In this document: positions 34,795-64,000 of the stretch, one piece after another
Numbering within the stretch: the stretch's first letter is position 1
Layout of the letters: the number at the start of each line of letters is the position of its first letter
Assembly (NCBI GenBank): GCA_022925895.1
Contig: JAKSYS010000216.1
Coordinates: forward strand, 21,888 to 85,887
DNA length: 64,000 bases
Direction of reading: 5' to 3'
Source of the DNA: Fragilaria crotonensis
Lineage: Eukaryota; Bacillariophyta; Fragilariophyceae; Fragilariales; Fragilariaceae
Notes under the pieces: model-generated
Seen by the model: only the letters and a program-made list of their open reading frames with translations
The model's database searches: none
What the model was told of the DNA's origin: nothing
Program-made: the position numbers and the translations under genes

Positions 34795-36982
34795 TCAAAA
34801 GCGCGTAATGTTGCCATCATAAAGGAGATAATAATCTCCTCGTTCGAAATTATCCTGCCAGTTTGGATCGTACTGTGCCAACTCATCACCGTAGTCACAA
34901 TCGGTCGTAGTGTTGGGATCGCAACATGTGCAACAGGAACAGATGATGGTGGTATTGACGGCTCCACAATCGGAACGAGCAAAGTCCCAATCAAGATTAA
35001 CCAATTCCTCACATAACAAAGATAAATTTCCAGTCAATTTTGGATTCCCATCCAAAAGAAGCGCCTCTTTATAGGAAGGAAGTGAACAAGATGAGTATAG
35101 TTAAAAGTCAGACAATTTCCCACACAAAGATGTCAAAACTTACGAAGGGAGGACACGAATCCCAATTCCGTCGGAACGTTTCCTTCCAACTGGTTTCGGT
35201 TCAAGAAAAGGAACTGCAAGCTAACCATGTTCCCGATTTCCGATGGAATTTTACCTGTGAACTGGTTGGCATCCAGATCTAGCAACACAAGTCTGTCAAG
35301 ATCTTTCAACCATGTTGGAAGCAGCTAACAACAAGGGAAGAAGAAGACGATAAAAAAAGCAGACAAATTCAGAAAGTGAGGAGAGATGCGACTTGGCGTG
35401 TTCGCCAAGGTTGGGTTTGTCTGAGTTTACTTACCCCAGTTCGTCCCGAGCGCTTTAGACTCAAATCCACAAGGTTTGTAAGACCTTGGTATTCCTCTGG
35501 AATAGACCCCGCAGTAAAGTTCGTACCCGCCATGAATAGATAAGTCAGCTTTGTTAGTTCACCAATCTCCGAAGGCATGCCCCCGGTGAATCCAGTTGAA
35601 GTCAAGTCTAGATGATCCAACTCGGTCAAATTTCCAATAGTCTTGGTGGGGAATGAACCGGTGATGGGATTGTCGTAGAAAGCCAAAAATGAGAGGCTAC
35701 CATTGGCAGGAATGGAATCGGGAAACTCGGTGAGCTGGTTGTCATGGATATCAAGGATTGTGAGCGAAGGCAATCCCATGAGATGCACAGGCACCGTTCC
35801 ATTAAGCAGATTGCCGGAAGCATCCAAGATTCGAAGGTTAGAAAGATCCTGAAGGAATGTGTCGTCCACGGTACCTGTGAATCCATTGCTATCAATGTAC
35901 AGCCCGGTTAACTTGGTAAGTCCTTCCAGCACGCTCAAATCACCTGTCATGGTATTGTCGTCGACGGCAAAAACACGAAGATCGGTAAGGGAGGCAAGGG
36001 AATCCGGCAAGGACCCGCCGATATCATTCGCCGAGAGGCTTAAAAACGTCATGGAAGTCCACTGATCAATCCAGCTAGGGAGGGATCCGGATATTGACGA
36101 GCCCGAGAATTCAATAGAATTCAACTTCTTCAGGTTCTGCAGGGTATCCGGCAAGGACTCGACAAGAAAAATTTCTCGATAAAAGATGAAGCTTTCGAGT
36201 TCGGCGAGAAGACCCAATTCGGAAGGAAGGCTACCAGTAAGGCCAATTCCAACTTGACACTCCTGGTGAGTCGAAATGTCGGTTCATAACGTAATCAAAT
36301 GTCACAGAAGTGGGCACTTACAAAACTGAATCTTCTTGATCCGTTGACTGGTTTCATCGCAGGATGCTCCTTGCTCGTAGAAGTCATTTGTCCTTGTCCG
36401 CAAAATAACGTTCCAGAGACAGCATGTATTCGCCGCTTCCAAAAAGTTGCTCTGATCTAACCATTGCTCGCCACGGAGAGAGTAGTAGAAGACGACCAGA
36501 ACATAACGTTCCATCCAAGCGATCGATTCGTCCGACGTCGATTCGGTTGGTACATCGAGTCCCATGGACTCTACCATGAATTCAACAGCTCGGCTCTGTG
36601 GGCTGTCCAATTCGGCCAAGGATTCTGCGGAAGAGTATCCCTGTTGCACAACCCACGCCTCGACTGCCGCTCTACGATTGGCCATGACGGCAGGGCTCAT
36701 TGTGGGAGACGTGTCGCCGATGCTGTCGTTCGGGTTGCCCGTACTTGCACTACTATTGTTTCTGGACAGCACGACCGCGAGAGAAATGATTGTTACCAAC
36801 ATGACAACGACCATGATGATGAATGCAGGGATTAGCCAACGTCGTGCTCGGGGAGGAGACGGAGGCGATTCGGTCACCAACTGACGAGCACTTCCTTCGA
36901 CAGGGAGGTCGCCTTCAGGAGAGATGCTCACACTCCTACCACTAGTAGGAGATCCAGCCTCATATTCTTCAGGGTTGCCCAT
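34795..36982 (-). CDS. Transmembrane leucine-rich repeat protein 1 (4 exons)
   Basis: Exon 1 (36982-36322) encodes a Ser/Pro-rich N-terminus, a single membrane segment at residues about 49-72 (WLIPAFIIMVVVMLVTI...) and a capping region with a Cys pair. Exon 2 (about 36259-35435) and exon 3 (35324-35144) encode about ten LRRs of plant-like type (LTxLxLxxNxFTGxIPxE). Exon 4 (35066-34795) encodes a Cys-rich end (CSCCTCCDP). The introns after exons 2 and 3 are GT-AG and keep the frame. The junction of exons 1 and 2 does not: donor GTAAGT at 36321-36316 and the nearby AG acceptors leave the frames one nucleotide apart. The protein is probably anchored with the LRRs outside the cell or in the lumen; recognition or adhesion is only inferred. 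The paralogue at 38.4-40.6 kb has the same exon pattern. Confidence 0.8.
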
Positions 36983-37860
36983 CGTTGCAATATTTGAGTT
37001 ACACCAGGTTGAAAGCTTGAGTAATGTGATCGGGCGAAGTATCCGTCCAGTAACTTCTCATACGAAGACCTGAGAATCAATCGAATCCTGATGATTCCTG
37101 ATGCAGAGGACGAAAGAACACGACTTGTGGTACAGTAATCGAATGAATCCTTGCCAGCTCAACGTCACCTCTATATATGCACAGTGCATATTCCAAATTA
37201 GTGACTATGTGTGTGACGTGTGTCTGGTACTATACGAATAACTGATGTCGTCGACCACATATTTAATTAAGAAGGATCATTTCACTTCAAAAATTTGCGT
37301 AACAACACCAGAACACTTATGTACTACTGCATCAATCGGCAGGAGATCCGCTGCATACATCGGGGTAAACGCGTATTTTTCGGGTCGTGTGCATGTATCA
37401 CTACACTATATGCTCTCTATATATACTGGTATGTATGTCATATCCATACACACAGCAGCTATTGTCCTCGATCATTTTATTTGGATCCTTTGTAATGTAC
37501 TACTATGATATACAGTACAAGTACGGAGTACGTCGTACAACGAGCAGTAGGTACTGTACAGTATGCTCGTATTCTCAACCCGCACATTTTGCATGAGCCG
37601 AGTACCTCGTACTCCAGCACAGTACATAGTGGAACATGTACTTGAAACTCGTACAGTAGTACTCCGAGTACAGTTGGGTTAGAAGCATAACGGCTAACAA
37701 GCAACATGCAAACATGCAGCATAAAGAAACACCTGCATTCCGCCCTACGGAGTATGTCATACGCGCATTCAACGAGTACTCCAGTATCCAGTATCCATAT
37801 CTACTTTATAATGTCTACAGTCGTACCGTACTGGCGTATCGAGTATGATAGCAATCCCTT
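36983..37860. other. Intergenic, GTAC-rich
   Basis: No gene supported. From about 37500 to 37690 and at 37770-37800 the sequence is crowded with GTAC, AGTACTCC and TACTCCAGTA words. The left part holds the promoter of LRR gene 1. Confidence 0.55.
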
Positions 37861-38070
37861 GCCCTTCGCACCGATGATGTTGTGCTTTCTGCCTCCATGA
37901 ACTCGAAATTGACAGAAAATGATGCCATCGCAGCACCAGGTAATCATAACATGCATCACAGTTGCAGCTTCTCTTGTTCAGGGACACTCATTGGTTGGAT
38001 CACACCATGTTGACATTATTGCACATGGAGGTGTCGCAATCTTGCCGAATTGGATTCCAGAGACGTGAAG
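37861..38070 (+). pseudogene. 5' fragment of the 2OG-Fe(II) oxygenase gene (duplicated piece)
   Basis: About 210 bp that match 50028-50237, the start of the oxygenase gene, at roughly 85-90 percent. The matching protein words include NDAIAAPGNHNM, and HGGVAILPNW in another frame. An indel stops the frame after GTLIGWITPC, and the similarity ends near 38070. It is a truncated copy and cannot make the enzyme. Confidence 0.8.
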
Positions 38071-38420
38071 AATGACATAGGATGCGGTTCATGGTTTGCC
38101 AGTCCCTTGAATCGATTGCAGTTGGCTACGAGCAACCATCCCATCTCCCTATTTGTGACACTGCAGAACTCTCGATTTCCTTGCTTCGTTCCCAGCACAA
38201 TTGTATCTTCCCACGTGCAGATGTATTGTGTATCGGGATGATGAAGGCTCAGGACCACCAGAAAAGAATGATGCATTTGCTCCGACGTATTACTTTTCCT
38301 GAGAGAATGTGGACTGCCTCGCTGCTGCATCTTTCTCAAGTGCTAATCCTACATTTTTATGCGTTGACGTCAGTCGAGCATCCAATCCATAAAGTACACA
38401 ACATCATTTGGTTTGCGAAC

Positions 38421-40590
38421 TTAGAGGCGCGTAATGTTCAAGTTGTTAAAGGAATAAACATCGCGATCGAAATCATTTCCCCAGTTGGGATCGAACTGTG
38501 CCGATTCATTACCGTACTTACAATCGGTCGCATTGTTGGGATCACAACACAGGCAACAGGTGCAGCTGATGGTGGCATTGGTAGCATTATTGACAGCTCC
38601 ACAATCAGAACGAACAAAGTATGTCGTACGAGTCTCCAATTCCTCACAGAGTAACGCTAAATTTCCAGACAAATTCGGGTTCCCATCCAAAAGTGCCCTT
38701 TTCAATAAATGACGAAACGAAATGATGTCGTGTGAGACAATTGTGGTGCAACTGAAAGTGTGGCCCCACGGCACACACGCATATGTCAAGACTTACGAAG
38801 GGTGGACGCAAATCCCAGTTCTGTCGGAACATTTCCTTTGAACTGGTTGTGGTTCAAGAAAAGGAATACCAAGTTCACCATGTTCCCGATAATGGTTGGA
38901 ATTGTACCGTTGAGCTGGTTGCCATCCAAATCAAGAAGCACTATTCTGTCAAGATCTTTCAACCATGTTGGTAGAAGCTACGAAAGTAGAGGCATGGAAA
39001 ACAAGCAGGATAACTCAGAAAAAGGTGGATGTGACATGCAGTGGAAAGTATAAGTTCACGTACCCCAGTTCGTGCCGAGCTCTTGAGACTCAAATCCACG
39101 AGGCTGGTAAGACTTTGGTACTCGTCTGGAATAGAGCCCGCGGTAAAGTTCACACCGGCCATGAAAAGATACGTCAGATCTGTTAATTCACCAATCTCCG
39201 AAGGCATTCCGCCGGTAAATCGAGTCGATGATAAGTCAAGATGACTCAACTTGGGCAAATTTCGGATGGTTTCGGTGGGGAATGAACCAGTGATGGGATT
39301 GTTGTAGAAAGCCAGGAGTGAGAGGCCGCTATTGGTAGGAATGGAATCGGGAAACTCGGTGAGCAGATTGTTATTGATGTCAAGGATTTCCAACAAAGGC
39401 AACCCCATGAGATGCACTGGCACTGCTCCTTCGAGGAGGTTGCCAGAAACATCCAATATTTGAAGGTCGGAAAGATTCTGAAGAAAGGTACTGTCCACGG
39501 TACCAGTGAATCCATTGCGATCGATGTATACATCGCTTAAATTGGTTAGTCCTTCCAACACGCTCAAATCCCCGGTCATGGAGTTGTCGTCGACGGCGAG
39601 AAGAAAAAGATTTGTAAGGGAGGCTAGGGAGTCTGGCAGGGATCCGCTGATTTCATTCGATGAGAGGCTTAAAGAAGTCATCGAAGTCCACTGACCAATC
39701 CAGCTAGGAATGCTACCGGATATTGTCGAGCCTGAACAATCAATGTAAGTCAACTGCTTCAGATTCTGTAGGGTGCTGGGAAAGAACCCGTCAAGGTACT
39801 CTTCGTTCAAAAGCATGAGGGTTTCGAGTTCAGCGAGAAGACCCAATTCGGAAGGAAGGCTACCAGCCAGGCCAATTCCAACTGTATGTTCTTGGTTAGC
39901 CGAATTCTCGATCCACATAGTACTGACACAAGCGACAGAAGTGGGCACTTACAAAACTGAAAATACTTGATCCGTTGACTGGTGTGATCGCATGATGCGC
40001 CTTGATCGTAGTAAACTCCCGATAGCTTCACCGCAACGTTCCAGATGCAGCATGAATTATCCGCGTCCAAAAAGTTGCTCTGAGCTAACCATTGCTCGCC
40101 ATTAAGGGCATAGTAAAGACCGCAAGAGCGTAACGCTCCATCCAAGCGATCGATTCATCCGACGTAGTCTCGGTTGGAACATCAAGTCCCATGGACTCCG
40201 CCAAGAACTCTACAGCTCGGCTCTGTGGGCTGTCCATTCGGCCAAGGATTCTGCGGAAGAGTATCCCTGTTGCACAATCCACGTCTCGATAGCCGCTTTA
40301 CGATTGGACATGACGATGGGGCTCATGGTCGGAGTAGCCTTGTCGATGCCGGTCGGGTCATCAGAATTATTGTTTCTGAACAGCTCGACCGCGAGAGCAA
40401 TAATTGTTACGAACATGACAACGACCATGATGACCAATGCAGGGACTAACCAACGTCGTCCTCGGGGAGGAGACGGAGGAGATTCGGTCACCAACTGACG
40501 AGCACTTCCTTCGACAGGGAGGTCGCCCTCGATGCTCACACTCCCAGCATTAGTAAGAGATCCAGCCTCCAATTCTTTAGGGTTGACCAT
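38421..40590 (-). pseudogene. Transmembrane LRR protein 2, broken paralogue
   Basis: The same architecture as LRR gene 1: exon 1 from 40590 (MVNPKELEAG, membrane segment WLVPALVIMVVVMFVTI), exon 2 to 39065, exon 3 38977-38797, exon 4 38697-38421 with the Cys-rich end. Exon 1 has two 1-nt deletions relative to gene 1. Near 40236, CCGAATGGAC replaces CCGAATTGGAC. Near 40112, TCTTTACT replaces TCTTCTACT. At exon 4 the AG acceptor leaves the frame off by one. The donor after exon 2 is GTACGT instead of GTAAGT. The LRR part itself is intact and well conserved, so the decay is recent or the indels are assembly errors. Confidence 0.75.
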
Positions 40591-48290: not shown

Positions 48291-50037
48291 TGGTTGACCA
48301 TCATCAGTTTGGTACGGTTAATAGGGACAACAAACATTAATTACTAGAAGATCGAAAATGGTCACCAGCACACCAGTTTAATTGTAGTAGAAATGTACTA
48401 TAAGTAAAGAATGAGGATCAAAGTTGTTACGTAAAGTAATTTATCATTGCAATGCTGAGGTAATATTTTGTTAAAGCTGGTTCTACTAGCTTCTGGGCTC
48501 AAAGCCACACCAATCACTTGGACGAGGGGAGAGTTTCATGTTCTTTGGTGCCTTCATGAGGATCCTCATCAGTGTACATGCCACCGACTGCGTTGAGAGC
48601 AGAGAGATTGATTACAGGAGCCAAAGTGTGGAACCTGATTTCATCGTCAATTGGCTCATCACCACTGATGATGCCAGCCCCGTCGTTCGCTGGTGTCAAC
48701 TCGACCTTGATCGCCACTGCTGCAACGCGAACATCAGAACGCGGCACTCCTGCTGCCGGTGGTGCTGGCAGGTAAAGGCAAGCAAAAATTGCGTCTGCTC
48801 TCATCCCCGTCGATAAGATTGTCGGGAGACTCGCCATCAGCTGGCACAACGATAAGATTGTTGGGAGACTCCTCGCCGTCAGCTGACACAAAAGAAGGAA
48901 CAGTATCGACATCAATATCATCAACACACACATCAAATCCTGTCGCAAAATTGGGACCTGCAGCGACCGCAAAAAGAATAATACTCATCATCTTTACCAT
49001 CATTACAATACAATTCTTTATCTTTCAGCAATATTTGCAAACCACCCTTTTGCTTCCTAAGCCAACTTATCAAAAGAAGTGTGATCAACAATTTGCCAGC
49101 AGTGCCAGCATAAGGATGCATTCTATCTCTTGCATACTTAAAGAAAATCCCAGTTGGGATCTATTGATGCAAGCAAGGCAAGCCTGAACTGGTGATCGAG
49201 GGAGTTTTGCACTCGCCCGAGTAATACGATTTCATCGGTTATCATCGTCGTGATCAACAGCACTATTGCTTTGCAACATTGCTGACCAGAGTTGCAATGG
49301 TGCGGAGTGGTCCAGAGCACATCCATAGGAAAGACTCAATGCTGGGTAATCCTTTGATGTTCCCAATTTGACACCATTCTCCCAAACATTTGGGACAGCA
49401 TCAGTTGGCCAAGCTGATGATGCAGATAGCCAACAATTCAGTGAACTCAGGATACTCTTGTTGGAAACTGTATTGCTACACAGCTTGGACTTTTTGGGGG
49501 ACAACAGCAATGAGTGACGGCATCGTCACAAAATGGCCTCTTGAAATTTTCTGTTCTGGAGTATTGCGTACTTCAAATGGAGGAGCCTTCACGAGCAAGG
49601 ACAGTGATGCAAGCAATGTCATTACTCAGGTTTGGGAACATGATGATGGCCGGGGACAGAAAATTATTGCAACACATCCCAATTGGTCTCAATTCAGAAC
49701 CAATTTCACAAGCGAAACCACCAGCCACTTCCTGACGTACGATGACAGGAAAATGGGTGAAGTGAATACCTTTCTGATTTCCAGGATTCCCTTGACGTAA
49801 CGATTACGAGATAGGAGTGCCATTTAGTCGGATCTGTTCAAAGTTTTATGCGAGACATTACACAAGAAGTAGTACGAGTACCTCATGATATGGAAGTAGG
49901 AGTGCGGATACATACAGCGTATGCTGATAGGCAACGGAAGATGAGAACTTCAGTATATCAGATCTGTATACTGTATTAACGGCATTTCTTATCATCGAGG
50001 ACAAGCACTGGCACAAGGCACTTCGCACTTCGCACAG
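48291..50037. other. Intergenic with uncertain open frames
   Basis: On the minus strand, 49003-48734 starts with a hydrophobic leader (MMVKMMSIILFAVAAGPNFA) followed by an acidic repeat (ADGEESPNN, ADGESPDN). A shift of one nucleotide near 48760 would continue it to 48514 (VRVAAVAIKVEL, DEPIDDEIRF). This may be a decayed secreted protein. A plus frame at 49390-49800 (136 codons) has no domain. Neither is called as a gene. Confidence 0.35.
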
Positions 50038-51190
50038 ATGATGTTTCGCCTCCATAATCTCGAAATTGACGGAAATGATGCCATCGCTGCACCAGGTAAT
50101 CATAATATGCTTTACAGTTGCAGCTTCCTTGTTCAGGGACACGCATTGGTTGGATCACACCATGTTGACATTATTGCACATGGAGGTGTCGCAATCTTGC
50201 CGAATTGGCTTCCAGAGACGTTGACGAACGATATGAGACGCGATGCCCGAGTCCTCTTGATGCTGGATACTTTACTCCCGATGGACTAACCAACACAGCC
50301 CTCACCAAAGATCAGCAGGATTCTCTCCTCGTGCCGATCGTCAGACATTCCGCGGAGGTGATGGTTGGGATGACGTGTCTGCTGGTGACCATGGGACGCG
50401 GACCGAGTTTGCCAATCGCATGACCGCCCTGCGACTCGAACTGGCGCAAGGATTGAATCGACCGACAATGGGACTTGAAGGACAAGGAGGAAGCGATCGA
50501 AATCACGAAATGACGTACAACTGGTACGAGCCTGGAGCGAAATTGGGACGACATCTTGATGAACATCACGAAGAAACCAAGGGACCAAAAGGTTGGCAAA
50601 TGCCGACACGCCGATCAGTCACGTGGTTGGTTTATCTAAATGATGGGTGGACTAAAGAGGATGGTGGAATATTACACTGCTTTTCCCGTCAAAGTCGATC
50701 GAGCGCGCCTGTCGGAGCTCACGAAGGAAATTTACAAGTGGGTTGGATGGATCATGTGCATCCGGTGTTTCTAGAATCGTGGCGAGAAGAGAGCGGCCTA
50801 TCGGCTCTCTACAGGTTGACATCCGATAAGCGTCCCTCGGTGGAGCGAAAATACGTCAGTGCTGGTGATTTTGACATGCCACACCAGCCCATCAAGTTCC
50901 AAACATTTTTGCGTCAGGAGTATCGACAAGGCAGTCGATTTGAACAAATATCAACTGCTCGTCGGGATCCTCGTTTTTTCGACAGTACACAACCGCTGGT
51001 GTCGTCGTCAGCGTCCACTGAGAATGAATCATATCCTGTGCATATTGTAAATGTCGTTCCAGCAGCTGGGACCTTGGTTTTGTTTGATTCAGTAACGCTT
51101 CCTCACCTGGTAGGAGAAGTGACAGGACCGAGGCAACGAATCGCGGCGACAGGGTGGTTTCATGAAGATAACCAGGCGCTGCCTTTTTAA
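50038..51190 (+). pseudogene. 2-oxoglutarate/Fe(II) oxygenase-like gene with two frameshifts
   Basis: Frame 1 starts MMFRLHNLEIDG and reaches HGGVAILPNWLPET, TNDMRRDARVL. It then shifts near 50252 into LDAGYFTPDGLTNTALTK, and shifts again near 50322 into DRQTFRGGDGWDDVSAGD, after which 272 codons stay open to 51190. Each shift can be mended by one extra nucleotide. The catalytic part shows HLDEHHEE (HxD), VTWLVYLND, GTLVLFDS with a distal His (LPHLVGE), and RIAATGWFHE with the Arg for 2-oxoglutarate, as in prolyl-hydroxylase-like dioxygenases. The substrate is unknown. The long intact C-terminal part suggests either very recent decay or assembly indels. A truncated copy of its start is at 37861. 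Confidence 0.72.
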
Positions 51191-51339
51191 TTCCGTTTGT
51201 TCGGAGCTACAAGTAAATCCCTGGATTGCGCGAGCATAATTGTGAGCGTAGTGAAGGTCGCATGAATCAAGATAACAATCAACGGCTTCATGGGTGTTCA
51301 AGTTAATCAGGCATAGTATTGTACACTGTTGTTTACACC

Positions 51340-51633
51340 CGAAATAAATTCCGAGTCTTGTCCAAATTTCTCTAAGTCCGTTTAGTCGGATGAGTCGTCT
51401 GCTTCGTGGTTTCGTCGTACCGTTGTCTCGCGCACTGTCGCGTCGATTCGTGTGTTGTCTGTGGTCATTCTCGTTTCTCTTTTGTGCTCGTGAGACTAGT
51501 AGAAATAAATAGATGGCATCGGAATCTGGTCCTAATAGTTTTGTCTCTCTCCTGGTTCGTCTCGCGGTGTCGGTCCCGTGATAGTTATCTAGCGGGGTCC
51601 GTCGCGCGATTGTGAGTCGACCTGGTTTCCGCC
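51340..51633 (-). repeat. B2 terminal repeat of the YR retrotransposon
   Basis: 294 bp, starting CGAAATAAATTCCGAG on the plus strand, matching B1 (51876-52163) except for a few short indels. Confidence 0.92.
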
Positions 51634-51719
51634 CCATGCAGAGCATGGCCAGGAGGTAACCGCGCCAGGGGCGCTGATGAACCTAGGCATCGGGCCAGAG
51701 AGGAGGTGTGGGTGGGTGG

Positions 51720-51875
51720 GATTAACTAGAGTAGTGTCTTTGTCGATTCGAGTTCGTTCGGATTGTGAGCAATTCGTATCTTGTGTTGTGTTGTGTCGTG
51801 GTGTTCGTCTGTCTGTGTCTCGTGTTCGTCTGTCTGATGGCGACTGCCCGTCCTTTCCGATCTTCGGACATGCCA
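51720..51875 (-). repeat. A2 repeat of the YR retrotransposon
   Basis: 156 bp from GATTAACTAGAGTAGTG to TTCGGACATGCCA; matches A1 at 57935-58090 with a few substitutions and single-base indels. Confidence 0.92.
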
Positions 51876-52163
51876 CGAAATAAATTCCGAGTCTTGTCCA
51901 AATTTCTCTAAGTCCGTTTAGTCGGATGAGTCGTCTGCTTCGTGGTTTCGTCGTACCGTTGTCTCGCGCACTGTCGCGTCGATTCGTGTTGTCTGTGGTC
52001 ATTCTCGCTCTTTGTGCTCGTGAGACTAGTAGAAATAAATAGATGGCATCGGAATCTGGTCCTAATAGTTTTGTCTCTCTCCTGGTCTGCCTCGCGGTGT
52101 CGGTCCCGTGATAGTTATCTAGCGGGGTCCGTCGCGCGATTGTGAGTCGACCTGGTTTCCGCC
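51876..52163 (-). repeat. B1 repeat of the YR retrotransposon
   Basis: 288 bp, nearly identical to B2. It abuts A2 directly and overlaps the C-terminal frame of the recombinase (52119-52436), so the recombinase ends inside the repeat. Confidence 0.92.
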
Positions 52164-53330
52164 ATTTTCCGGTTGTCGTTCGTCCGCAGAATCTGGGGCG
52201 ATCGTGTAGAAAGATTGTCGACTCGTCATGCGTGCGGCTACTCCGAGTGTCGAGTCCGGCACTTGAATTCGGAGGTATCTCATGAACGTCTGGCTTCGCC
52301 ACCTCCCCACCATCTGAATCGTCTCACTTGGAACTCCGGCGAGGTGCATGGCCATCGCGGCGCCTGATCTGATCGAGTGAGTGCCGATGCCACTCGCCTG
52401 GAGGCCAAGCCTCTCTCCCCTGCGAGTCGTCGCCATCCTGAGCTGCCTCAGTATGGACTTGGAAGAGATGTGTGGGGTTCGTCTGAGTCCTGCGTCCTGA
52501 CGGCGTTAATCTTCGGGTTCGTCCGTGAATGGCAATCGTAACCCCGTACCTCGTCGTCAGGTCCGCTAGCACGCGGACGGGGCAGATGTCCGTTTGTCCC
52601 TGCCTGTCGTTTCGATGCTGAGTCACTGTCGCGCCTTTGTCCCCGTTCTTTGTCGCCGGAAGGTGATCGACACGGTGTCGGCATTCTCCAGTTGTCCTCG
52701 GTCGGTTGTCTGCAGGTCCTGTCCCTTCTGTCGGAAACGAACGTCGTCCACTCTGATCACTGATGTCGTCCGTCGGCTTCCGACATCGGAATATTCGCAC
52801 GACCTCATGGCGAAAAAGAACGCGACCACCACAAGTTGTCCAATAGCGATGTCCGTCTCGTTTCTTGCCCAGGATCGAACCTTTGAATCACCTCTAACGG
52901 CAGCGCCTGCTGTGGGTAGGTCCTGGGTCCCGTCGGCGTAACGTTTCAGTTGTAAAGCCAGAAGGGGTCGAGTCGTCCGGCGGCGTCGTGGATTGGGCTC
53001 TCAAATTTGTTAAGCCTGAAGGCCTGAGCCACACCGTCGAGGGTGGCACGAATGGAACCGGACAAGGGTCCATTGCCAGCTTCCTGAGGTTGTCGGGAGC
53101 GAAGCCGTCCGTCCCGAAGGGCGGCGGCGAAGCAGGCGAACGTTTCTGCTTTCGCTCGTCCGAGTCCTGGAGAAAAGGCTCCCTCCGACTCCGTCGATTC
53201 GTCCGAGGAATCTTTCGTAACAGCGCCAGCTGCTATCGCGCTTGGCACGGGTTGAGTCGGCAAGAGCTGCGTTTTGGGCAGCAGCTGCAGCCAGCCTCCA
53301 ATCTGCGAAATAAGGGCTGGCCGCAAAGGG
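52119..53330 (-). pseudogene. Tyrosine recombinase of the YR retrotransposon
   Basis: The N-terminal domain is seen near 53300 as ALADSTRAKRDSSWRCYERF. The first catalytic Arg lies in AFFFAMRSCEYSDVGSRR (frame 52832-52623). The C-terminal catalytic box lies in frame 52436-52119 as GIGTHSIRSGAAMAMHLAG (HxxR), VGRWRS (Trp/His position) and FMRYLRIQ (Tyr nucleophile). All key residues are present, but they lie in different frames, so at least two indels separate them. In this class the recombinase inserts a circular DNA copy without target duplication. Confidence 0.85.
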
Positions 53331-53770
53331 ATGATCCTGAAGTTCTGTGGAACAAACGGTGAGCAGTTTTTCGTGATCAAGTCTGTCAGTGCCGCGTCGT
53401 CTAGAGCGAAATCTCGGGAGAGCATGTCCGCCACCTTGTTCTCTTCCTGGGAACGTTGAAGTTCGACTTAGCAAGCCATCCCGCTGCTGAGGTGCTGTCT
53501 CCTGACTGAGCAGAACGTCTTCGTCCACGCGGCCCCTTCGTGGAATTCCACGATCATCCCCACAAAGGCAGCAAGGAACTCGAGAGTGTTTAGGGTCGCT
53601 CGCCCCAGCAGGTGCTCTGGTAGCTGATATCGCCACGCCAGGCCGCTCTTGAGGCAGTAGCCTCCGATGCCTTGTGGGCATGCGTCCACCCTCACTATGC
53701 GCGTCGGCCACCGGCAAACCAGCCTGTTGATCGAGATACCCGCGACGCCTTCTGAAGGAAAGCCTTCCAC
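52946..53770 (-). pseudogene. RNase H region of the YR retrotransposon
   Basis: Frame 53770-53468 shows RVDACPQGIGGY (first catalytic Asp) and NTLEFLAAFVGM (Glu), the pattern of retroelement RNase H. The linker to the recombinase, ADMLSRDFALDDAALT, is in frame 53434-52946. The frames do not join, so the domain is interrupted. Confidence 0.75.
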
Positions 53771-54750
53771 AGAATCAGGTCGTCCAGTTGGGGTTTGGTC
53801 AGTCTCGCCTTCCCGGCCTGCTTCGAACGCTCGCAGGCCTTGTATAGCCTTCCCATAAAGTGTCTTGCGTAAGGGATGACGTAGGCGGCGTGGCTAAAAC
53901 GTCCGAGTGTCGTCTCCAGGTCTCTCGTCGTCACGAAGGCATGTCTGTGCGTCAGCATCCTGTCAACGGCTTGCGTCCAGCTCATGTGCTTATCGTGAGG
54001 CAGTGCGACGATGAAGCGGCGTGTGTCCACGATCCATCCGAGGATCATCTTCCTCTCGGATGGTTTGGCCTCGGCCAGGAACTTTGGGATCGCAAGGATA
54101 TCGTCTCTGGGAAAGTCTCCTTAACCTCGGGGTCGCAAGGCCTCCCGACCAGGTGGAGCGCCAGCGGGATCGCGGCAGCGCTCTTTCTGCGTCGCGGGGT
54201 TGAAGGCCCCAAAAATGTCGTCCAGGTAGCAGTCGAAGCGAGGGAGGTCGTCGAGGGTGGATAGTTCACTGGAAGTAGTCCGCCTTGCCGAAAACACTCA
54301 TTTTGTCGACCGACCCTTTGTCATTGTCCACTGCCCTTCGGTGTCCAGGAGGTGCTGGTGCGGCGAGTGGTAGACGCTCGGATCCCAGTCGTCCCTGCGG
54401 ACAAGGTCGTTTGCCAAGTCCGTGATCATCTCCGACACGTCGCTCCATTGCGATGGGTTTGGCGCTCCACCGAACGTCATCCTCAGCGCCACTAACAGCA
54501 GGTCGTCGATACTGTGCAGGACTTCATGGCTGTGGCTGCTTTGAGATGGATTCGTCTGTAGGCGGATTTGCAGTCGACCTTCGTCATCCAGATAGGCTCG
54601 TCTGGCCATAGTTGGCGCAGGAACGAGATGTGGTACATGAGTCTGCTGAATGCTTTTCCGAAACGTGCTTCTGTCAGTTGGGATGTGTCCACGCGTTCAT
54701 TTACGCCGTCCTGCCACTCCGCTCGGGCTGAATGACTGGTCATGTGTCAG
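53695..54750 (-). pseudogene. Reverse transcriptase of the YR retrotransposon
   Basis: Fragments in order: FGKAFSRLMYHISFLRQ and MTKVDCKSAYRRIHLKA (Asp of motif A), LLVALRMTFGGAPNPSQWSD (motif B), CYLDDIFGAF (the YLDD active site, near 54230), then ILGWIVDTRRFIVALP and LGRFSHAAYVIPYARHF of the thumb/connection. At least two frameshifts interrupt it. The domain content identifies the element as a retrotransposon. Confidence 0.88.
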
Positions 54751-54761
54751 TCGGAGTTTCT

Positions 54762-57700
54762 CTATTGAATTTCCTTTCGTCGATCGACGTCTGCGCGACC
54801 ATCCCCAGGCGCGACCTCGCATCCCTTGATCTCTAAGGCGGCTTCTCGCGGCAGTGGTAGCTGCCAACCCCTTGAGGCTTCGTCCTTCAGCATGGATATC
54901 AACTTTGCCTCGTGGCCTCGGGCCGATTTGTGATTGCCGCGAGCTAAGTTGGCGCGCACGTCCGCGAGGCGGTCAGAATCCGAGATCTCGCGAAGCGGGA
55001 ACTCGGCCCCTTCGAGATGCGCTCCTGAAAACGCGGCCAGAGGGTGGGCGGACAGGAGCGGGGCGAGAAGTTCGGTGGGGCGAAACTCGGATCCCGGCGT
55101 CAGGGCGCTGAACGGCTGGGCCCGAAGGGCGGCGTCGAGGTCGAGGGCGTACCGTTTGAGCACCGCGAGGTTGTGGCGGGCGGCGTCGTGCGTCCAGTCG
55201 AAGCGAAACTCCGTCGCGTGGGTGCGCGGTTGGCCGGAGTGCAAAATGGTGGCAAGGGCATCGGCCAGGCGTGGTTCGGGAGTCGGGAACGGCGAGTCGA
55301 CGTTCGGGAGCGGGATCGTCGGCAATGGCACCAACGATGGGAACTTACCGGGAAGCGGGCGTGGCGTGTCTGCGAGGGCTGATGTCGGCGCGTCGTGGGC
55401 GTCTCCGGGCGACAATGCGCGCGCCACGGAGTGGTCGGTCGGTGGCGAGTCGAGGGCGGAGCGTAGCGCCCAGGCCCGACTTCGTTTCGTGACGGGTCGT
55501 CGCGGGCTGGCGAGATGCGGGCGTCGGCGACGTGGCGGGGCGAGAAGGTTCGTGCGCGTGGGTTCCCGCGGGACTGTCTCGGGCGGCAGATTCCGATAAA
55601 GTCCGGGGCGTCCTACGTGGCGTCTGTTGTGGAACTCGGCCGTCGACCGTTCCTGGTCGAACGCCCATTGCGACGGCTGTGCGACGAAGGCGGGCTGGAA
55701 GTAAGCAGATGCAGAGGGTCCTAATTTTGTTTTCTTGCTGGGCGGCGTCGCGTCGGACGAGGGGCGCATGCGCGCCCGGCACTGCTCTATCCACGCTCGT
55801 ACGGCGGTCGTCTGTTCGGTCGTGAGGGCGACGTGAGGCGCTCAAGAAACAGCTCTTGACGCACTTCCCGTTTAGGTGCCACCTGCAGCACATGTTCGGG
55901 ATCGGTCCACTTCGGACGTGATCGAGGAACACCTGCCAAGTGTCGTTCGCGTCTCTCGGAAAAGGTCCTGCTGTGGGTTTGTGACTGCGTCCGCGGGTTG
56001 CCCGCGACGTCCGGCTCGAGCGCTCCCGGCGGCGGCTACAGGCTGCGAGTCGCCCTTTGGTCGACTCCACGTCCCAGCCGCTCCTTGAGGAAGTCGCAGG
56101 CCGGGAAGACAAAGGCGCCGTCCTCCAACTGCTGCCGGGTGGACCTGAATTCCAGGAGTGCTGGGTTGATCTCGTCCCGTGTTCGACTCCAGCGCAGAGA
56201 ACTAGGTATTGTTGCATGCGTTTTTCGATGAACCAACCTAACCTGCACGCGGCTGAGGGGTCGGCGTGCGCTAGCTGGCGGAAGCGTCGCCAGTGTGGAT
56301 CCGACCGCCCTGGTCAGGAAACGGCTCCACTCGTCCAACATGTGTGTGAGCGGGGAATTGGCTCCGAAAAGGAGCTCCAGCACTCCGCTCATGTTCTCGA
56401 TAAGCCGCGCGAGTTCGTGAAAATCTTTCGGCACCGTGAAGTTGAGTTTCGTCATGCTCTTGATGTCCTTCTCTGAGAAGCCCGTGGTCGTGTCGGTCGT
56501 CTTGAGTTGCATTTGCACGAGGGTGCTGGCGTGATCAGAGGCTTCTCGCCCGATCGCTGCTGCTCGGGCGAACGTCTGGGGACCGCAACAGAAGAGGCTG
56601 AAGGCCCCTGGCCGGTCAGGTGTGTCGGCCGTGAAAGACGCGGTGCGGATTGCGGCGCAGAAGCCCATGGGAATGAACGCGTCTCGACCTTTGGTGTTCA
56701 AGAAGTGGTGGATGTGGTTTTGTACGTAGGCCACGTTACTAAGCGTCAGGATGTCCGAGAAAGACTGGACCGGGCGGCTGCGAATCATCCTGTCGGCGTC
56801 CCTTTCGGACACGAAGAGGACCATTCGTTTCGTCGACGGCGGAAAGAGTCGCCTGTCTTCGACGTTTGGGGGACGAGGTCGCTGCGTTGCTGCCTGTCGC
56901 TCCAGTAACGTTGACAGGTTTCGAATGGCGTCCTCCGTGCGTCCTGGTGCTGGCATGGTCGTCCGTCCGAATGAGGCTCCTAGCTCTGACCGCCAGATGC
57001 TTGAGGTGTAGCGATTTCGCCCATTCGTCCGATCGTTTGGAGTATGCGTTTGATGCCGCCACCCTCGCTTTGTCGGTCCCGGGTCCTCGAGTTTACCGCT
57101 ACGCTGAGGACCCACCGCGGGATGTAAGAGGCTGCCTCCGCGCGGATGGTTGCTCTGGACGGGTCTGGGTCCTCGCTCGCTCTCTGTTTAATGGCGTTGA
57201 CGATCAGTAGGGCGAGCTCCTCTGGCGCGGTGACGTAAGTGTCCATGATGGCGGCTGCGATGAAGGCCGGCACCGGGACGGTGGGCTTCATCGTGAACCC
57301 GACGACCGTGACGTCGTCTGTGTCGTCCTCGCTCGCTTCGACTGGCTTGCTTGGCTTCGCCCGGTGCTTCGTTCCGCTTCCTTTCTTCGGTCGTCCTCTG
57401 GTTGCAGTCGGCAGGGTGCCGGCTGGCTCGGCGTCGCGCGTGGCTCCGGTGCTGACGCCTGACACCTGGGCACGTGTCGTCAGAGATTCATTGATCGCCG
57501 CCAGTACGTCCGACGTAGAATTCCACGAGAGCATCCTCGACCAATCAAAAGGCGTTCCGATGTGTCGCTCTACGACCTGTTTCGTGTCGACCGCCGCGGC
57601 GGCGAAGCCGCCAGCCCCATCAGTGCCCAAAGGGCGTTCGTCCCGTCGTTGAGTCCATCGTCAGCGTCGTGGTGGAAGTGGTGAAAGAGTCGGATGACTC

Positions 57701-57900
57701 CGTGCGTGTTTACCATAAGGTGGGCGACTTCCGGAGAGCACAAGTGTACGAATCCTGTAGAATTTGTACTGACCGAGTTCGTCTTCGAATTCAAGGCGCT
57801 GAGCTTTTCGACGACCTCCCACTGGTCGAGCTTCCTGAAAACGTCCAGCCACGTCAAGGTCATCGTCATCGGTGAGCGAGCGTCGTCTGACCTCTCCATT
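54762..57900 (-). pseudogene. gag-like region of the YR retrotransposon
   Basis: Several overlapping minus frames (57899-57570, 57630-56980, 57115-56036, 56217-55345, 55769-54762) each carry part of one polyprotein. A likely zinc-binding segment is CCRWHLNGKCVKSCF near 55890. The frame at 55769-54762 (335 codons, Pro/Arg/Ala-rich) leads directly towards the reverse transcriptase. Long plus-strand frames over the same DNA are shadows caused by high G+C. Confidence 0.6.
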
Positions 57901-57934
57901 GCGTCTGTGGTTCAAGTCGGGTCGGGAGAGGCCA

Positions 57935-58090
57935 GATTAACTAGAGTAGTGTCTTTGTCGATTCGAGTTCATTCGATTGTGAGCAATGTAGACTCTGTGT
58001 TGTGTTGTGTCGTGGTGTTTGTCTGTCTGTGTCTCGTGTTCGTCTGTCTGATGGCGACTGCCCGTCCTTTCCCGATCTTCGGACATGCCA
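57935..58090 (-). repeat. A1 repeat of the YR retrotransposon (5' end of the element)
   Basis: 156 bp matching A2 at 51720-51875. The match ends at GGACATGCCA (58090), which defines the element's 5' boundary. Confidence 0.92.
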
Positions 58091-58157
58091 TGCCGGTACC
58101 GAACAATAAAAATGGAACACAAGCGTCATCCTATGGTACTGGTACTTGTACAATATA

Positions 58158-58979
58158 TGACAGACTTCCAGTATCGCCCTACATATTTTTACATCTATCC
58201 CGATCCCAACTGTCGCCCGTGTGCACAGTAAAACGTTACATCCGTGCTCCAGTAACCAGTGCGACACTGCACGACTGGAATCAAAACTCTCGTCGATTTG
58301 AATTTCATGTTCATCTCATCCCATGAGATTGAACACTCATTTTCAAACGAGACTCAACGCCTCGTGTACCGACGACCACACCGCGGCACGAAACGACGTC
58401 TCCGAGAAACGAGGAGTGTTCCTCATTGTTCCAAAGGAACACTCCCCATCTATCAGACCTCTCATCCCTTGGTGCACCTCTCCTTCTTCTCACAATTGTC
58501 GAAATTACTCATTTTAGTGCCACTTACCTTTTTTCTGCACATACTGTGAATATTGCACATCATGAATGAAATTGACCATGACGAATTTTACCGCCGGTCG
58601 TCAAATTGTCAACCTCACCATACTGTACATATATCAGTAGTCAGTACGACGGTACTCACTATTACGACAGCACACAACACAGCAATCAGTACAGCAGTAC
58701 TTTGCACATCACTCTTCTGCCCGGCCATAGTCCGTGCACGTCTGAGTCTATCGTTACCGTACATAACGATAAACTATTAGACAGTGCCCACTATGACCAA
58801 AGCGATATTATTACTAGTCAGTCCTCGCACATTTATGTAGCGATAGACCGACAGATAGTATACGTATCGTTGTCTGTAGCGGTAGACAGCATTGTATTGC
58901 TGTACCGTTTATAGACACACTAAGCAGTAGTCAGTGTCGTACTAGACACTTACCTACTGGGGCGTACCCGTAACGGTTA
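58158..58979 (+). repeat. 5' LTR (minimum extent)
   Basis: Matches 63187-64000 at well over 95 percent, with small indels such as CATCTATC against CCATCTATC. It starts TGACAG. The real end is further right; the repeated GGTTGCTCGC words at about 59050-59090 lie near the probable boundary and primer-binding site, which I cannot place. Confidence 0.88.
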
Positions 58980-61283
58980 CGTCCTGGTTCTTAACCCGAA
59001 CCCTATGCCGACTGCGCGTCGACAGGTTCCGTTAACCCGAACCATATCATGGTTGCTCGCCAGGTTGCTATCCTGGTAGCTCACCTGGTTGCTCGCGACG
59101 AAACCTGAGCCTATTCAATTTAAATTTGGTGCCTAGCACCGATTTAAATTGTTCTAACCTTTGTTCTTTCCTTCCAGCTCAACTTTTATACCAGCAGTAC
59201 ATGTTCCTACTGCCTGAGAATTGAAATTCTCATTCCTTGTGCTCACTTTTTTGCAAAACTTGTCTAACCCAACTCACCCTTCATCCTCAACTTTGCAACT
59301 CTCACCATGGTCAACCCAGCACTAACCCATTTGCCTCCAACTGAGGCCAACTGCCCACCCACCCATTGTGTCAAACCAACAAAGCACATGGCGAACTATG
59401 TTGCCGCCGACGGCGACATTACAGCTCCTTTTGATGCACTCAAAATGCTGTCCTACCTTTCAAGAAGCATTCCTTTTCCTATGTTGCAACTCTAACACTT
59501 CTTCCATTGCTGAATCTAACACCTACAGGCCCAAGAAGAGCCCAAGCAAGCTCCAGGCCATTTTCAGCACACGCAACGGCCCTGACTCCTGAGCAAGAGT
59601 CCGCCGTCATCTCGTTTTCTTGAAACCATCGATCAAGAACGCCTCCAAGACACCAACACCAACAACAGAGTTAACTACGCCTGCGAACTCTCCTACGAAG
59701 CAGGATCTACCGATATGGGTCGCTCCCATTCTCTTTCCATCGAACCAGGCGCCATCAACGACATCGCAGCCGCCGAACTCCAAGACAATCAAGACAACAA
59801 TGCGCGCAATACCTTCGCTTCCACCATCATCCCGCGCCAAGAAGACCTCCAACTCGCCTCCTACGAAAGGCCTATCAAGAACCAACGTGTCAGATTCAAT
59901 TTTAACGTCGAAACCATCAAGATCAAGAACAATGAAGTCGCGAAATGCGACTCTTTCAAGATTCCGGCGACGAACGCCGAAGACCTCCACTACGACAAGA
60001 GGGGTATCATCCAAACCGCCTTCGGCTCTCCAATGCATGTCCACAATCAAAATTCCGACGAATACTCGAGGAGAAATCGTCCGAACAGTGGACTGCATCA
60101 AAGAATTAGCGCAGAACGTACGTTTTATACGCCGTGCAAGCGCGAAGCTCGCAAGAGCGATTCTGACGACGACATCACATCAAGCGAAGCCAGAGCTTCC
60201 ACAACATGTCTACTTTCTTCAGGCACCAAGAATTGGCGGAGAACAAGCAAAACAATAATGGCAATAATGGACAAGTTCCAAGGCCAAAATTGCAAATTCT
60301 CCTCTGAGTGCCTCTCCAAGTCTCCAGAACTGCTGAATCCACCTACAAGTACTACAATGATGCAGCTTCCTATGAGATTGGAAGAACTTCACAGAATTTC
60401 TTCCCAACTTTACCTGAGAAGGTCATTCCATTTGTAAGGCACCATAACAAAGCAGTCATACAGCATGACAACCTTATCTTGCCTGTGACCCTCCGGTTAC
60501 AACTTCCCATCAAACTGTCAGCACTTCAATTGCTACTCAGAATGATGAGAACACCCCTCCACGTGACGCCATCAATGGCCCTGTTCCGCACGACGGAATT
60601 GGTCCGATGTCCGAACGCGATCCCGAATTGAAAATGCCGTTAACCCCAACTTCAACGACGACATTTCCGATAACGGCCTTGACATAGGTAACATGTCATG
60701 CGGAATCCGATGGAAACGAACGATGACAGAGATATTCATCAAGACTCCCGGACGAGAAATCGAAATTCCCTACGTCGAATCCCCTCCCACGCCGCCTACA
60801 CAGACAAGACTCCGCGGACACCACCTACGAATCTGCGGACATGCTGACGACTACGATTCCAGCACAGCCACAGACTACGTCCGCCTTCCGCCACCCGCCG
60901 GACACCAAGATCTACCGTGACTCAGACATCAAGCACAAGAAAACTACCCATTCTCAGTCACACTTCCACAATTTTTGAACAGAAAGCCTGTAGCTTTTGA
61001 AAGCTGCAATCCCTTCAGTTTTCTGTCAATTGCTGAGAACTCACAAGTTGCATCCCACCACCGACAGCGCCTCCGATTGCCTACTATCTACGACTGCAGG
61101 CATCACCAACTTGATCAAGACAATGTCACACAATCACCCAGAATACCCATACACAAACAAGACACCAGAGACACTCCTTCATGTCATTCCTGGTGAGTCT
61201 AGTTCTGTGTGTTCAAACAATGAAAACAAAGAAAATCTATTACTTGCAACTCACTTACTCCTCCTGGCCACAGACACAATGAT
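58980..61283 (+). other. Long leader / 5' internal region of the LTR element
   Basis: Two overlapping plus frames at 59620-60258 and 59715-60437 are open without a domain. One of them (LSIEPGAINDIAAAELQDNQ, then EVAKCDSFKIPATNAED) looks like real protein, so a decayed extra ORF or N-terminal gag part is likely. Nothing resembling pol is found. Confidence 0.4.
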
Positions 61284-62816
61284 GTGAATGTAGCAACAGA
61301 GGATTATTGCAATGTGATAAGATATGAATTTGAGAAACAACAAAGCCTTTGCAAACACAATGCCCTTGCTGTTCAAACTCCCAGATCATTAATTTTACCC
61401 AAAAATCCGAAAACGCAGACATCAACAACAAACGCTCCGTCAACCGAAAATGCACCTCCAGAAGGAGCAAATGCTCACCAAGAAGTGCACCACCCAATGT
61501 TTGCAAACACGCCAACTAATTGTGAAACATTTTTTGATGACAATGAGCATGAAAACAATGATGATGATCTGCCTCAAACTCCCTTAACCTCCCCAGATGG
61601 TGCCCTGACATCATCAACCAGAACTGACTTCACATATCCACCGATTGAAGACCTCACAAGGACGCTCCTGAAATATGCCAAGATTGCAAACCTTCAGGAA
61701 CTTAGCTTCCCAACTGACCTTCTCTCACGAAGACGACAATTCAATGCCTTCATGGATAACCTCCGAATCATATGCAGCATATCACCATGGACACGCCAAG
61801 TCTTTGACCTTTGGCCGAGACAAATCAATTACTCTCATCCATGTGTTGGTATTGCAATCTTCAATCTGATTTTCACCAACATCTGTGAGCCCTGCCAGAC
61901 ACACATTATTGACTGTTCCCCAGATGCCAGAACAGCCATTCTGACTCTAAGACGTCACTGTGCACCGCTCACCCAAGATCACATTGAACGACGCGCGAAT
62001 CCTTCTACTCCATCAAGCAAGGACATCAAGAAGTTGCAACATCCTACTTGAATCGCATTCGACATTATCGCGCGACTGTTATCACGCCGGAATCACAAAC
62101 ACCGATGCTGATATAATCAAACGAGCCATTCATGGCGGCAGCAATCACCACTTCTATGCTGCTTCCTACCAACGCTTTGATGCCGACATCCGTCGAGCAG
62201 AATTACATGACAAAGAACTACCAACATTTGCGGAACTTGAGAGCCACTTATTGAATATTGATGATTCCTGTGGACTTACTCTCCTTCCCAAAACCAGCAC
62301 AATTACAACCAACATGCAAATTCTGCACACCAACCTTCATCAAGTCTGCCTTTTCAACATCAAGGCACAACTTATGATGATTTTCCACCACATCAACAGC
62401 AAGCCTTCACCAGTTCTTCAATGATGCAACCAAATGCAGCCAAAAACAAGAACAGGCCACCAAATCATTTTCAAAATCAAACAAACAATCTGGCCTCTGA
62501 ACATCCAAGAAGACAAACAATGACAATGATTGCAGTATTGCAATGCAACAGCCTCAACCTTTTCAAAAGCAACATCGCAACACAAGACCTCATTTCAGAC
62601 AAAATTCTTCAAACAAATCAAAGGCGTCCTCCAGATAATTTCAGCTCACCCAATGCTGCAAATATTACATGCTACAATTGTGGACAACTTGGCCACTATG
62701 CTAATCGATGCATAACCGTCAACAGATCACAAAACAGCAACCACGGAGGACTCCAAACACAAATCCAAACAATGATGAAACCGCACCCACAACCAACGTG
62801 CTTATTACATCACTGA
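61284..62816 (+). pseudogene. gag with CCHC zinc knuckle, several frameshifts
   Basis: The first frame (61284-62051) carries the capsid-like core: DLLSRRRQFNAFMDNLRIIC, DLWPRQINYSHPCVGIAIF and LTLRRHCAPLTQDHIER. A 2-nt shift near 62000 leads to FYSIKQGHQEVATSYLNRI. A second shift near 62075 leads to RDCYHAGITNTDADIIKRAI and FAELESHLLNIDDSCG (frame 61960-62424). The third frame (62421-62816) has CYNCGQLGHYANRC, a perfect CX2CX4HX4C nucleic-acid-binding knuckle. Both early shifts sit in CGCGCG where CGCG would restore the frame. The gag identity is firm; whether this copy makes protein is doubtful. Confidence 0.8.
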
Positions 62817-63178
62817 TTCAATTCCATCTCAATCACATGCTTTTCACCATCAAGCATACATTGCATCCTGCAATGACCAGGGCAACTTCAACTGCCCAAA
62901 ACCAGTTACTTCATGGCCTGATATTGACACCCCTGAGCAGATGGCAATCAACAGAGTATAACTCAATGATTTCTAACCATCAGTTCCAATATCTCCATAC
63001 AGGCCAACAACAAGACACACTACACATCAACTACACTGAAAACCTTGTGAATCACACTTCACAGACATTCCCAAAAAATGCAAGTCTCACCAAAACAAAA
63101 AACAATCTTCAGATCAAAAGATTCTGTATGTTTCCAAAGCAAATGCTACAACATCAGAAATCAACAGAGATTTGATTC

Positions 63179-63186
63179 AAGAGGGG
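63179..63186 (+). promoter_or_regulatory. Polypurine tract
   Basis: AAGAGGGG immediately before the TGACAG start of the right LTR, the usual site of plus-strand priming in LTR retrotransposons. Confidence 0.75.
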
Positions 63187-64000
63187 TGACAGACTTCCAG
63201 TATCGCCCTACATATTTTTACATCTATCCTGATCCCTAACTGTCGCCCGTGTGCACAGTAAAACGTTACATCCGTGCTCCAGTAACCAGTGCGACACTGC
63301 ACGACTGGAATCAAAACTCGTCGATTCAATTTCATGTTCATCTCATCCCATGAGATTGAACACTCATTTTCAAACGAGACTCAACGCCTCGTGTACCGGA
63401 CGACCACACCGCGGCACGAAACGACGTCTCCGAGAAACGAGGAGTGTTCCTCATTGTTCCAAAGGAACACTCCCATCTATCAGACCTCTCATCCCTGTTG
63501 CACCCTCCTCTTCTCACAATTGTCGAAATAATTCATTTTAGTGCCACTTACCTTTTCTGCACATACTGTGAATATTGCACATCATGAATGAAATTGACCA
63601 TGACGAATTTTACCGCCGGTCGTCAAATTGTCAACCTCACCATACTGTACATATATCAGTAGTCAGTACGACGGTACTCACTATTACGACAGCACACAAC
63701 ACGGCAACAGTACAGCAGTACTTTTGCACATCACTTCTTCTGCCCGGCCATAGTCCGTGCACGTCTGAGTCTATCGTTACCGTACATAACGATAAACTAT
63801 TAGACAGTGCCCACTATGACCAAAGCGATATTATTACTAGTCAGTCCTCGCACATTTATGTAGCGATAGACCGACAGATAGTATACGTATCGTTGCTGTA
63901 GCGGTAGACAGCATTGTATTGCTGTACCGTTTATAGACACACTAAGCAGTAGTCAGTGTCGTACTAGACACTTACCTACTGGGGCGCCCTGTAACGGTTA
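63187..64000 (+). repeat. 3' LTR (truncated by window end)
   Basis: Second copy of the sequence at 58158-58979. Few differences between the LTRs suggest a young insertion. Confidence 0.9.

Follow-up and report, generated by a model that had tools for sequence, protein, structure and literature searches.

Retrotransposons of the Ngaro type, which encode a tyrosine recombinase (YR), have been described from stramenopile hosts. In the flagellate Cafeteria burkhardae they are GC-rich, 6–7 kb long and arranged as A1-[ORFs]-B1A2B2 (ORF, open reading frame); they encode a Gag-like ORF1, a reverse transcriptase (RT) with RNase H and a YR, and several families occur per genome (PMC8547959). In Ectocarpus, 15 Ngaro and 5 PAT-like families were counted (PMC12477816), and DIRS/Ngaro-like elements are also mentioned (PMC3145265). 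Phaeodactylum tricornutum, a diatom, is credited with 14 elements of the DIRS order (18,118 bp), listed as a count without structure (PMC5859163). How YR retrotransposons integrate is known mostly from models (PMC3266345, PMC6681497). Here we describe an element that shares the Cafeteria traits listed above (RT and RNase H as judged by motifs) and occupies positions 58090–51340 of a 64,000-nucleotide stretch of the Fragilaria crotonensis genome (contig JAKSYS010000216.1; hereafter the window). Very probably it is one member of a diatom family of Ngaro-like YR retrotransposons present in multiple copies. Near-identical copies are numerous in this one genome, which also holds related families and target sites that are still empty, so the crossover point is open to direct reading.

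Architecture and copies of the element

The element comprises the following parts, the repeats and the spacer being delimited by repeat comparison.

51340..58090, minus strand: whole element, 6,751 bp, terminal bases 5'-T...G-3'; limits from the repeats, from junctions compared with 20 other copies and from its own empty site at G000:C524
57935..58090, minus strand: A1 repeat, at the 5' end
51876..52163, minus strand: B1 repeat, abutting A2
51720..51875, minus strand: A2 repeat
51634..51719, minus strand: 86-bp spacer between A2 and B2
51340..51633, minus strand: B2 repeat, at the 3' end
51875..51876, minus strand: G^T step at the border of B1 and A2, where junctions and empty sites place the crossover; regarded as a copy of the circle junction

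The original prediction had given these A and B repeats on the minus strand, with B1 touching A2, and was correct to the base. The longest exact run in common is 52 bases for the A pair and 114 bases for the B pair; no 20-base word was repeated in any of five shuffles of the window. The predicted excess of G+C over the surroundings is also borne out (59.1% against 46.3% for the remainder of the window, where the richest other 6,751-bp stretch reaches 49.1%). Directly outside the 5' end of the element, window positions 58000–64000 have a strongly negative GC skew (−0.18 to −0.35). Split direct repeats in the order A1-[ORFs]-B1A2B2, a Ngaro trait, are present, and inverted repeats of at least 30 nt (exact seed of 12), a DIRS1-like trait, were not found in positions 50000–60000.

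Searching the 62-Mb genome with the B1A2B2 block returned at least 40 matches (145 candidates, 40 of them scored). Thirty-eight of those scored are full-length, 30 at 96–100% (the window copy included) and eight at 89%, and the other two are partial. We fetched 20 copies, 15 belonging to family I and five to family II. All four repeats are whole in 17 of these; A1 is shortened by an internal deletion in two (L021 and L022) and was not found in the fetched stretch of one (L031). A third family is represented by an element at G000:C24:69473-76126 (L054, L035 and L055), in which A1/A2 are 111 bp and B1/B2 177 bp long and stand in the same order A1-[ORFs]-B1A2B2 as in the window. The unit proposed in the original prediction, a YR retrotransposon with A1-ORFs-B1-A2-B2, therefore recurs both in other genomic copies and in another family. 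The family III RT–RNase H region is 59–61% identical to that of families I and II. Its gag-like ORF and a 1,257-aa ORF lie in one phase with a single stop codon between them; the latter contains a CCRYHLNGRCVKSC motif, a proline-rich stretch, RT and RNase H, and its end is overlapped by a 461-aa YR frame.

An all-against-all comparison covered 14 of the 21 copies, without the five of family II and without L021 and L022. Pairwise differences among the 13 family I copies amount to 4–27 substitutions and 20–55 indel events across 6.9 kb. The window copy stands 45–55 substitutions away from them and has 125 missing bases and 31 substitutions private to it. The window copy is thus the most diverged of the 14.

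The repeats are far more alike within a copy than between families. Of the 15 family I copies, 12 show no substitution between B1 and B2 and three show one; the five family II copies all show none. A1 and A2 show no substitution in 12 of 13 family I and four of four family II copies (L021, L022 and L031 are not in this count), and the window copy, tallied separately, has three substitutions in A and three in B. Between families I and II, by contrast, the mean is 23.3 substitutions in B and 8.6 in A, so both members of each repeat pair have changed jointly. Such joint change is what the published reverse-transcription model for split-repeat elements requires (PMC6681497). Following that model, the element RNA would be copied by RT and RNase H, and the internal B1A2 block would serve as the template that restores the B–A border in a circular DNA.

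That the host is a diatom, as the original prediction had supposed, follows from its silicon transporters: the genome gives 19 matches to PF03842, 18 of them above the cut-off, and a single one of 14 control genomes matched, below the cut-off. Three such transporter units share one 1,456-aa open frame at G000:C97:29749-33762 (part in L012).

Coding regions and classification

The coding regions of the window copy lie between the repeats, as follows.

55849..57899, minus strand: gag-like region with broken frames, starting with the ATG at 57899 and reaching a CCRWHLNGKCVKSC zinc-finger-like motif (55890-55849)
54013..54584, minus strand: RT motifs A (54584-54543), B (54486-54436), YLDD (54231-54202) and ERKMILGW (54057-54013)
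53408..53698, minus strand: RNase H motifs DACPQG (53698-53657), LNTLEF (53593-53564) and VADMLSRDF (53434-53408)
52122..53255, minus strand: tyrosine recombinase, with the N-terminal part at 53255-53205 and a C terminus that extends into B1
52811-52791, 52385-52356 and 52286-52269, minus strand: YR catalytic motifs, namely Arg (AMRSCEY), HxxR (GTHSIRSGAA) and Tyr (FMRYLR)

YLDD, RNase H and a YR with HSIRSG and FMRYLR had been predicted between the repeats, and all were located in that order. The gag-like region has no Pfam match and is named by position, the family III copy having the same order. The element had also been called complete. This holds for the terminal and internal repeats, all of which are present, but not for the coding part: the coding frames (gag, pol and YR) are interrupted at several places, and the RT part is short of about 83 bp, close to element position 4637, that 98%-identical copies possess.

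RT motifs A, B and YLDD and the RNase H motifs are kept in all three families, and the RT–RNase H region has a ratio of nonsynonymous to synonymous substitution rates (dN/dS) of about 0.07 between families I and II at a dS of 2.1; the comparisons with family III are saturated (dS 3.4 in one, not computable in the other). The catalytic R, HxxR and Y residues of the YR are conserved, as in a tyrosine recombinase. The YR frame lies at −1 relative to pol and overlaps its end in the three families, and both overlapping frames are alike across families. From the end motif of RNase H to the N-terminal motif of the YR there are 203 nt in five of eight elements (C24, L042, L025, L034 and the window) and 201–202 nt in the other three (L033, L024 and L017). 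The first methionine of the YR frame in C24 falls inside the catalytic-arginine motif, with no ATG before the catalytic domain, and in L042 it comes earlier but still past the N-terminal motif. Because these methionines come so late, YR expression probably requires a −1 frameshift or an equivalent device. No plain canonical −1 slippery heptamer was seen in a by-eye check of the aligned pol/YR overlap.

The Ngaro assignment rests on architecture. Absence of a methyltransferase separates Ngaro from PAT (PMC4157794), and the element has no Pfam match to such a domain and no space for one between RNase H and the YR, which makes it Ngaro-like rather than PAT-like; of the Ngaro/PAT type named in the original prediction, the split-repeat order stands and the Ngaro side is favoured. 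There is likewise no space for an SGNH hydrolase ORF after the YR, because the YR ORF ends inside B1. Such an ORF has been described in amphibian Ngaro elements (PMC9210276), and being known from amphibian members it does not define the Ngaro group as a whole. That the element is instead PAT-like or VIPER-like is unlikely. Both types have the same repeat order (PMC4157794, PMC6681497), and overlap of ORFs, as found here between pol and YR, is not usual in Ngaro and Viper (PMC3266345). However, PAT encodes a methyltransferase (PMC4157794), for which the 203 nt in front of the YR leave no place and of which no Pfam match was seen, and VIPER has been called known only from Kinetoplastida (PMC3783388).

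Several results weigh against the identification as a Ngaro-like retrotransposon. The names RT and RNase H come from motifs, and whole-protein searches of Pfam, NCBIfam, PHROGs and PDB sequences found no RT or RNase H family, one RT search returning three unrelated enzymes at E values of 1.6 or worse; ORF2 of the Cafeteria elements was assigned to Pfam RT and RNase H families (PMC8547959), whereas the diatom RT escapes Pfam. When the RT profile was aligned by hhalign with Gypsy-type RTs of the same genome, only the YLDD stretch was aligned (17 columns, probability 0.9%). YR matches all fall below the Pfam cut-off (Phage_integrase, E=0.0016 for the window and E=5.5e-4 for C24), and the C24 YR, which matches the phrog_1 integrase at E=1.4e-4, has no match in NCBIfam or PDB sequences. 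Full copies with open frames, which the original prediction proposed to seek, exist as regards the repeats (17 of 20), but the longest frame among the 21 copies is 874 aa, and no pol frame in them reaches the 1,257 aa seen in C24. Indel events exceed substitutions in every compared pair, so assembly error may lie behind part of the broken frames. Within family I, joint change of the repeats is not visible (mean of 0.20 substitutions in B; six variable columns, each variable in one repeat only), so that the evidence for it comes from families I and II compared. Finally, the circle itself has not been seen.

A single bridge to other RTs was found, a stretch at G000:C82:89583-90155 (L053), which matches the element RT by BLASTP at E=3e-7 and by hhalign with a probability of 70%, each being a one-pair comparison; it passes the RVT_1 cut-off only together with its neighbours (28.3, then 31.8 bits). 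Aligned with another RVT_1-scoring stretch (P0003), the RT profile gave 21 columns. The C82 stretch, a divergent RT weakly like that of the element, carries a long insert that separates motif B from YVDD, and it is perhaps another YR or an unclassified retroelement. Neither scans of viral contigs, queried with the YR protein as well as the RT alignment, nor a scan of genome contigs with the RT alignment turned up relatives. Separately, 14 of the 111 RVT_1 matches fall on G000:C880 (a contig of 107,979 bp; L043–L045), as if it held many group II intron reverse transcriptases; this contig is possibly an organelle genome.

Crossover point, empty target sites and surrounding loci

In families I and II, the B1–A2 border reads TTTC-GT-GGCATG. 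At the outer ends of the elements, T precedes GGCATG in 20 of 20 readable left junctions and G follows TTTC in 21 of 21 right junctions, while the bases beyond vary. Outer junctions and border were read together in 16 of the 20 copies and in the window; L018, L021 and L026, and of L031 the right end, were read from separate stretches. The family III border is CACTTC-G^T-GGGATA, and twelve junction stretches from its kin again have the left T (6/6) and the right G (6/6); the C487 and C474 left flanks resemble each other and possibly record the same event. These sequences place the putative crossover between the G and the T of the B–A border in all three families.

We then joined the flanks of each copy across the element. 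Nineteen joined flanks were made and 18 searched (L024, in a tandem repeat, was excluded, and the L025 unit is without its first bases); L026, whose left flank is too short, and L031 gave none. At least seven of the 18 matched elsewhere across the joint, and six of these empty sites were fetched (that of L020 not among them). In all six the target is uninterrupted, and the added T and the added G are both absent. Three of the sites show no difference at the joint. The target of L027 itself reads G|T, so that its joint cannot be placed to the base; that of L029 matches at 94% and has a mismatch next to the joint; the window copy's own empty site differs in length by 5 nt at a point a few bases right of the joint. 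For the C24 element, the joined flanks match 140 of 140 bases at nine places. Target-site duplication, whose absence is a Ngaro trait, was found at none of the six fetched sites or the nine exact C24 matches. A search of 19 sites for a target motif turned up nothing more than a T as first right-hand base (11/19).

The L020 and C24 elements lie inside dispersed repeats (the L020 joined flank has at least 39 matches, and 31 of 33 C24 rows span the joint), and such flanks are useful for dating and for reading the insertion site.

These observations fit an element that is a circle opened between G and T and inserted without target duplication, loss or required homology. The element's own YR would open the circle at this point of the B–A border and join it to target DNA. 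Insertion of such a YR retrotransposon by end-joining of a linear cDNA, without the YR, is very improbable. It would accommodate a flush joint and the lack of required core homology between circle junction and target (G|T in only one of the six fetched sites). End-joining leaves small losses or additions, however, and here the ends are identical at every readable left and right junction and again in family III; the active-site residues and frame of the YR are conserved as well. That blocks A and B stand side by side by accident, through unrelated insertions or local duplications near an RT/YR fossil, is the reading that the original prediction had asked to be checked in other copies; it is refuted by the 17 of 20 whole copies, the further family, the joint change of the repeats and empty sites that lack exactly the whole unit.

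For YR-mediated insertion, a flush joint without core homology is unusual for a duplex tyrosine recombinase. A position that is always G/T, with a flush joint and no homology, is unlike the trace expected from such an enzyme with a multi-base overlap, and suggests a different reading, which we regard as rather doubtful: a single-stranded circular cDNA might be inserted by one strand exchange, the host copying the second strand. Integrons, in which single-stranded cassettes are inserted, offer a comparison. If this were true, YR retrotransposons would represent a eukaryotic single-strand recombination that needs no target homology.

Several other loci of the window were noted. A 2OG-Fe(II) oxygenase ORF (50375-51187) adjoins the element and lies near one member of a 94-bp piece duplicated at 98% 12 kb apart (37973-38066 and 50128-50221). 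Positions 35100-40530 contain duplicated blocks, one with a leucine-rich-repeat protein. Three kelch-repeat genes lie in a row (4871-6982, 13943-18550 and 20250-22025), and one kelch-repeat gene has an internal array of 441-bp, 159-bp and 78-bp repeats.

Comparison with known YR retrotransposons

The kind of element is already known; what is new is the family and the reading of its empty sites. In a partial literature search, which did not cover Repbase, no structural description of a Ngaro- or DIRS-type element in a diatom was found. The DIRS elements of P. tricornutum share a diatom host and, by name, the YR order, but their count alone cannot show whether they are Ngaro-like (PMC5859163). 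With the Ngaro/PAT-like families of Ectocarpus, known here from their description, the element has in common a stramenopile host and many Ngaro families in one genome (PMC12477816). Unlike in the Cafeteria Ngaro elements (PMC8547959), the diatom YR lies in a −1 frame that overlaps the end of pol.

Likeness extends to other types. VIPER-like elements, compared by structure, have nearly identical split direct repeats (A1...B1A2B2) but come from kinetoplastids (PMC6681497). PAT shares split direct repeats and, in Pat1, a zinc-finger Gag, and differs by its methyltransferase (PMC4157794).

DIRS1-like elements are also YR retrotransposons without target-site duplication, and half of the 28 annotated have a frame overlap (PMC3266345). 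DIRS1 itself differs: its terminal repeats are inverted, and its circular junction, of 3 bp, has been proposed to recombine with identical genomic sequence (PMC3266345), whereas the repeats of the diatom element are direct and split and an identical target sequence is not needed. A single G^T position, with neither duplication nor homology, limits how the recombination step can proceed, in contrast to the model published for DIRS1, where the recombination partner is an identical genomic triplet (PMC3266345).

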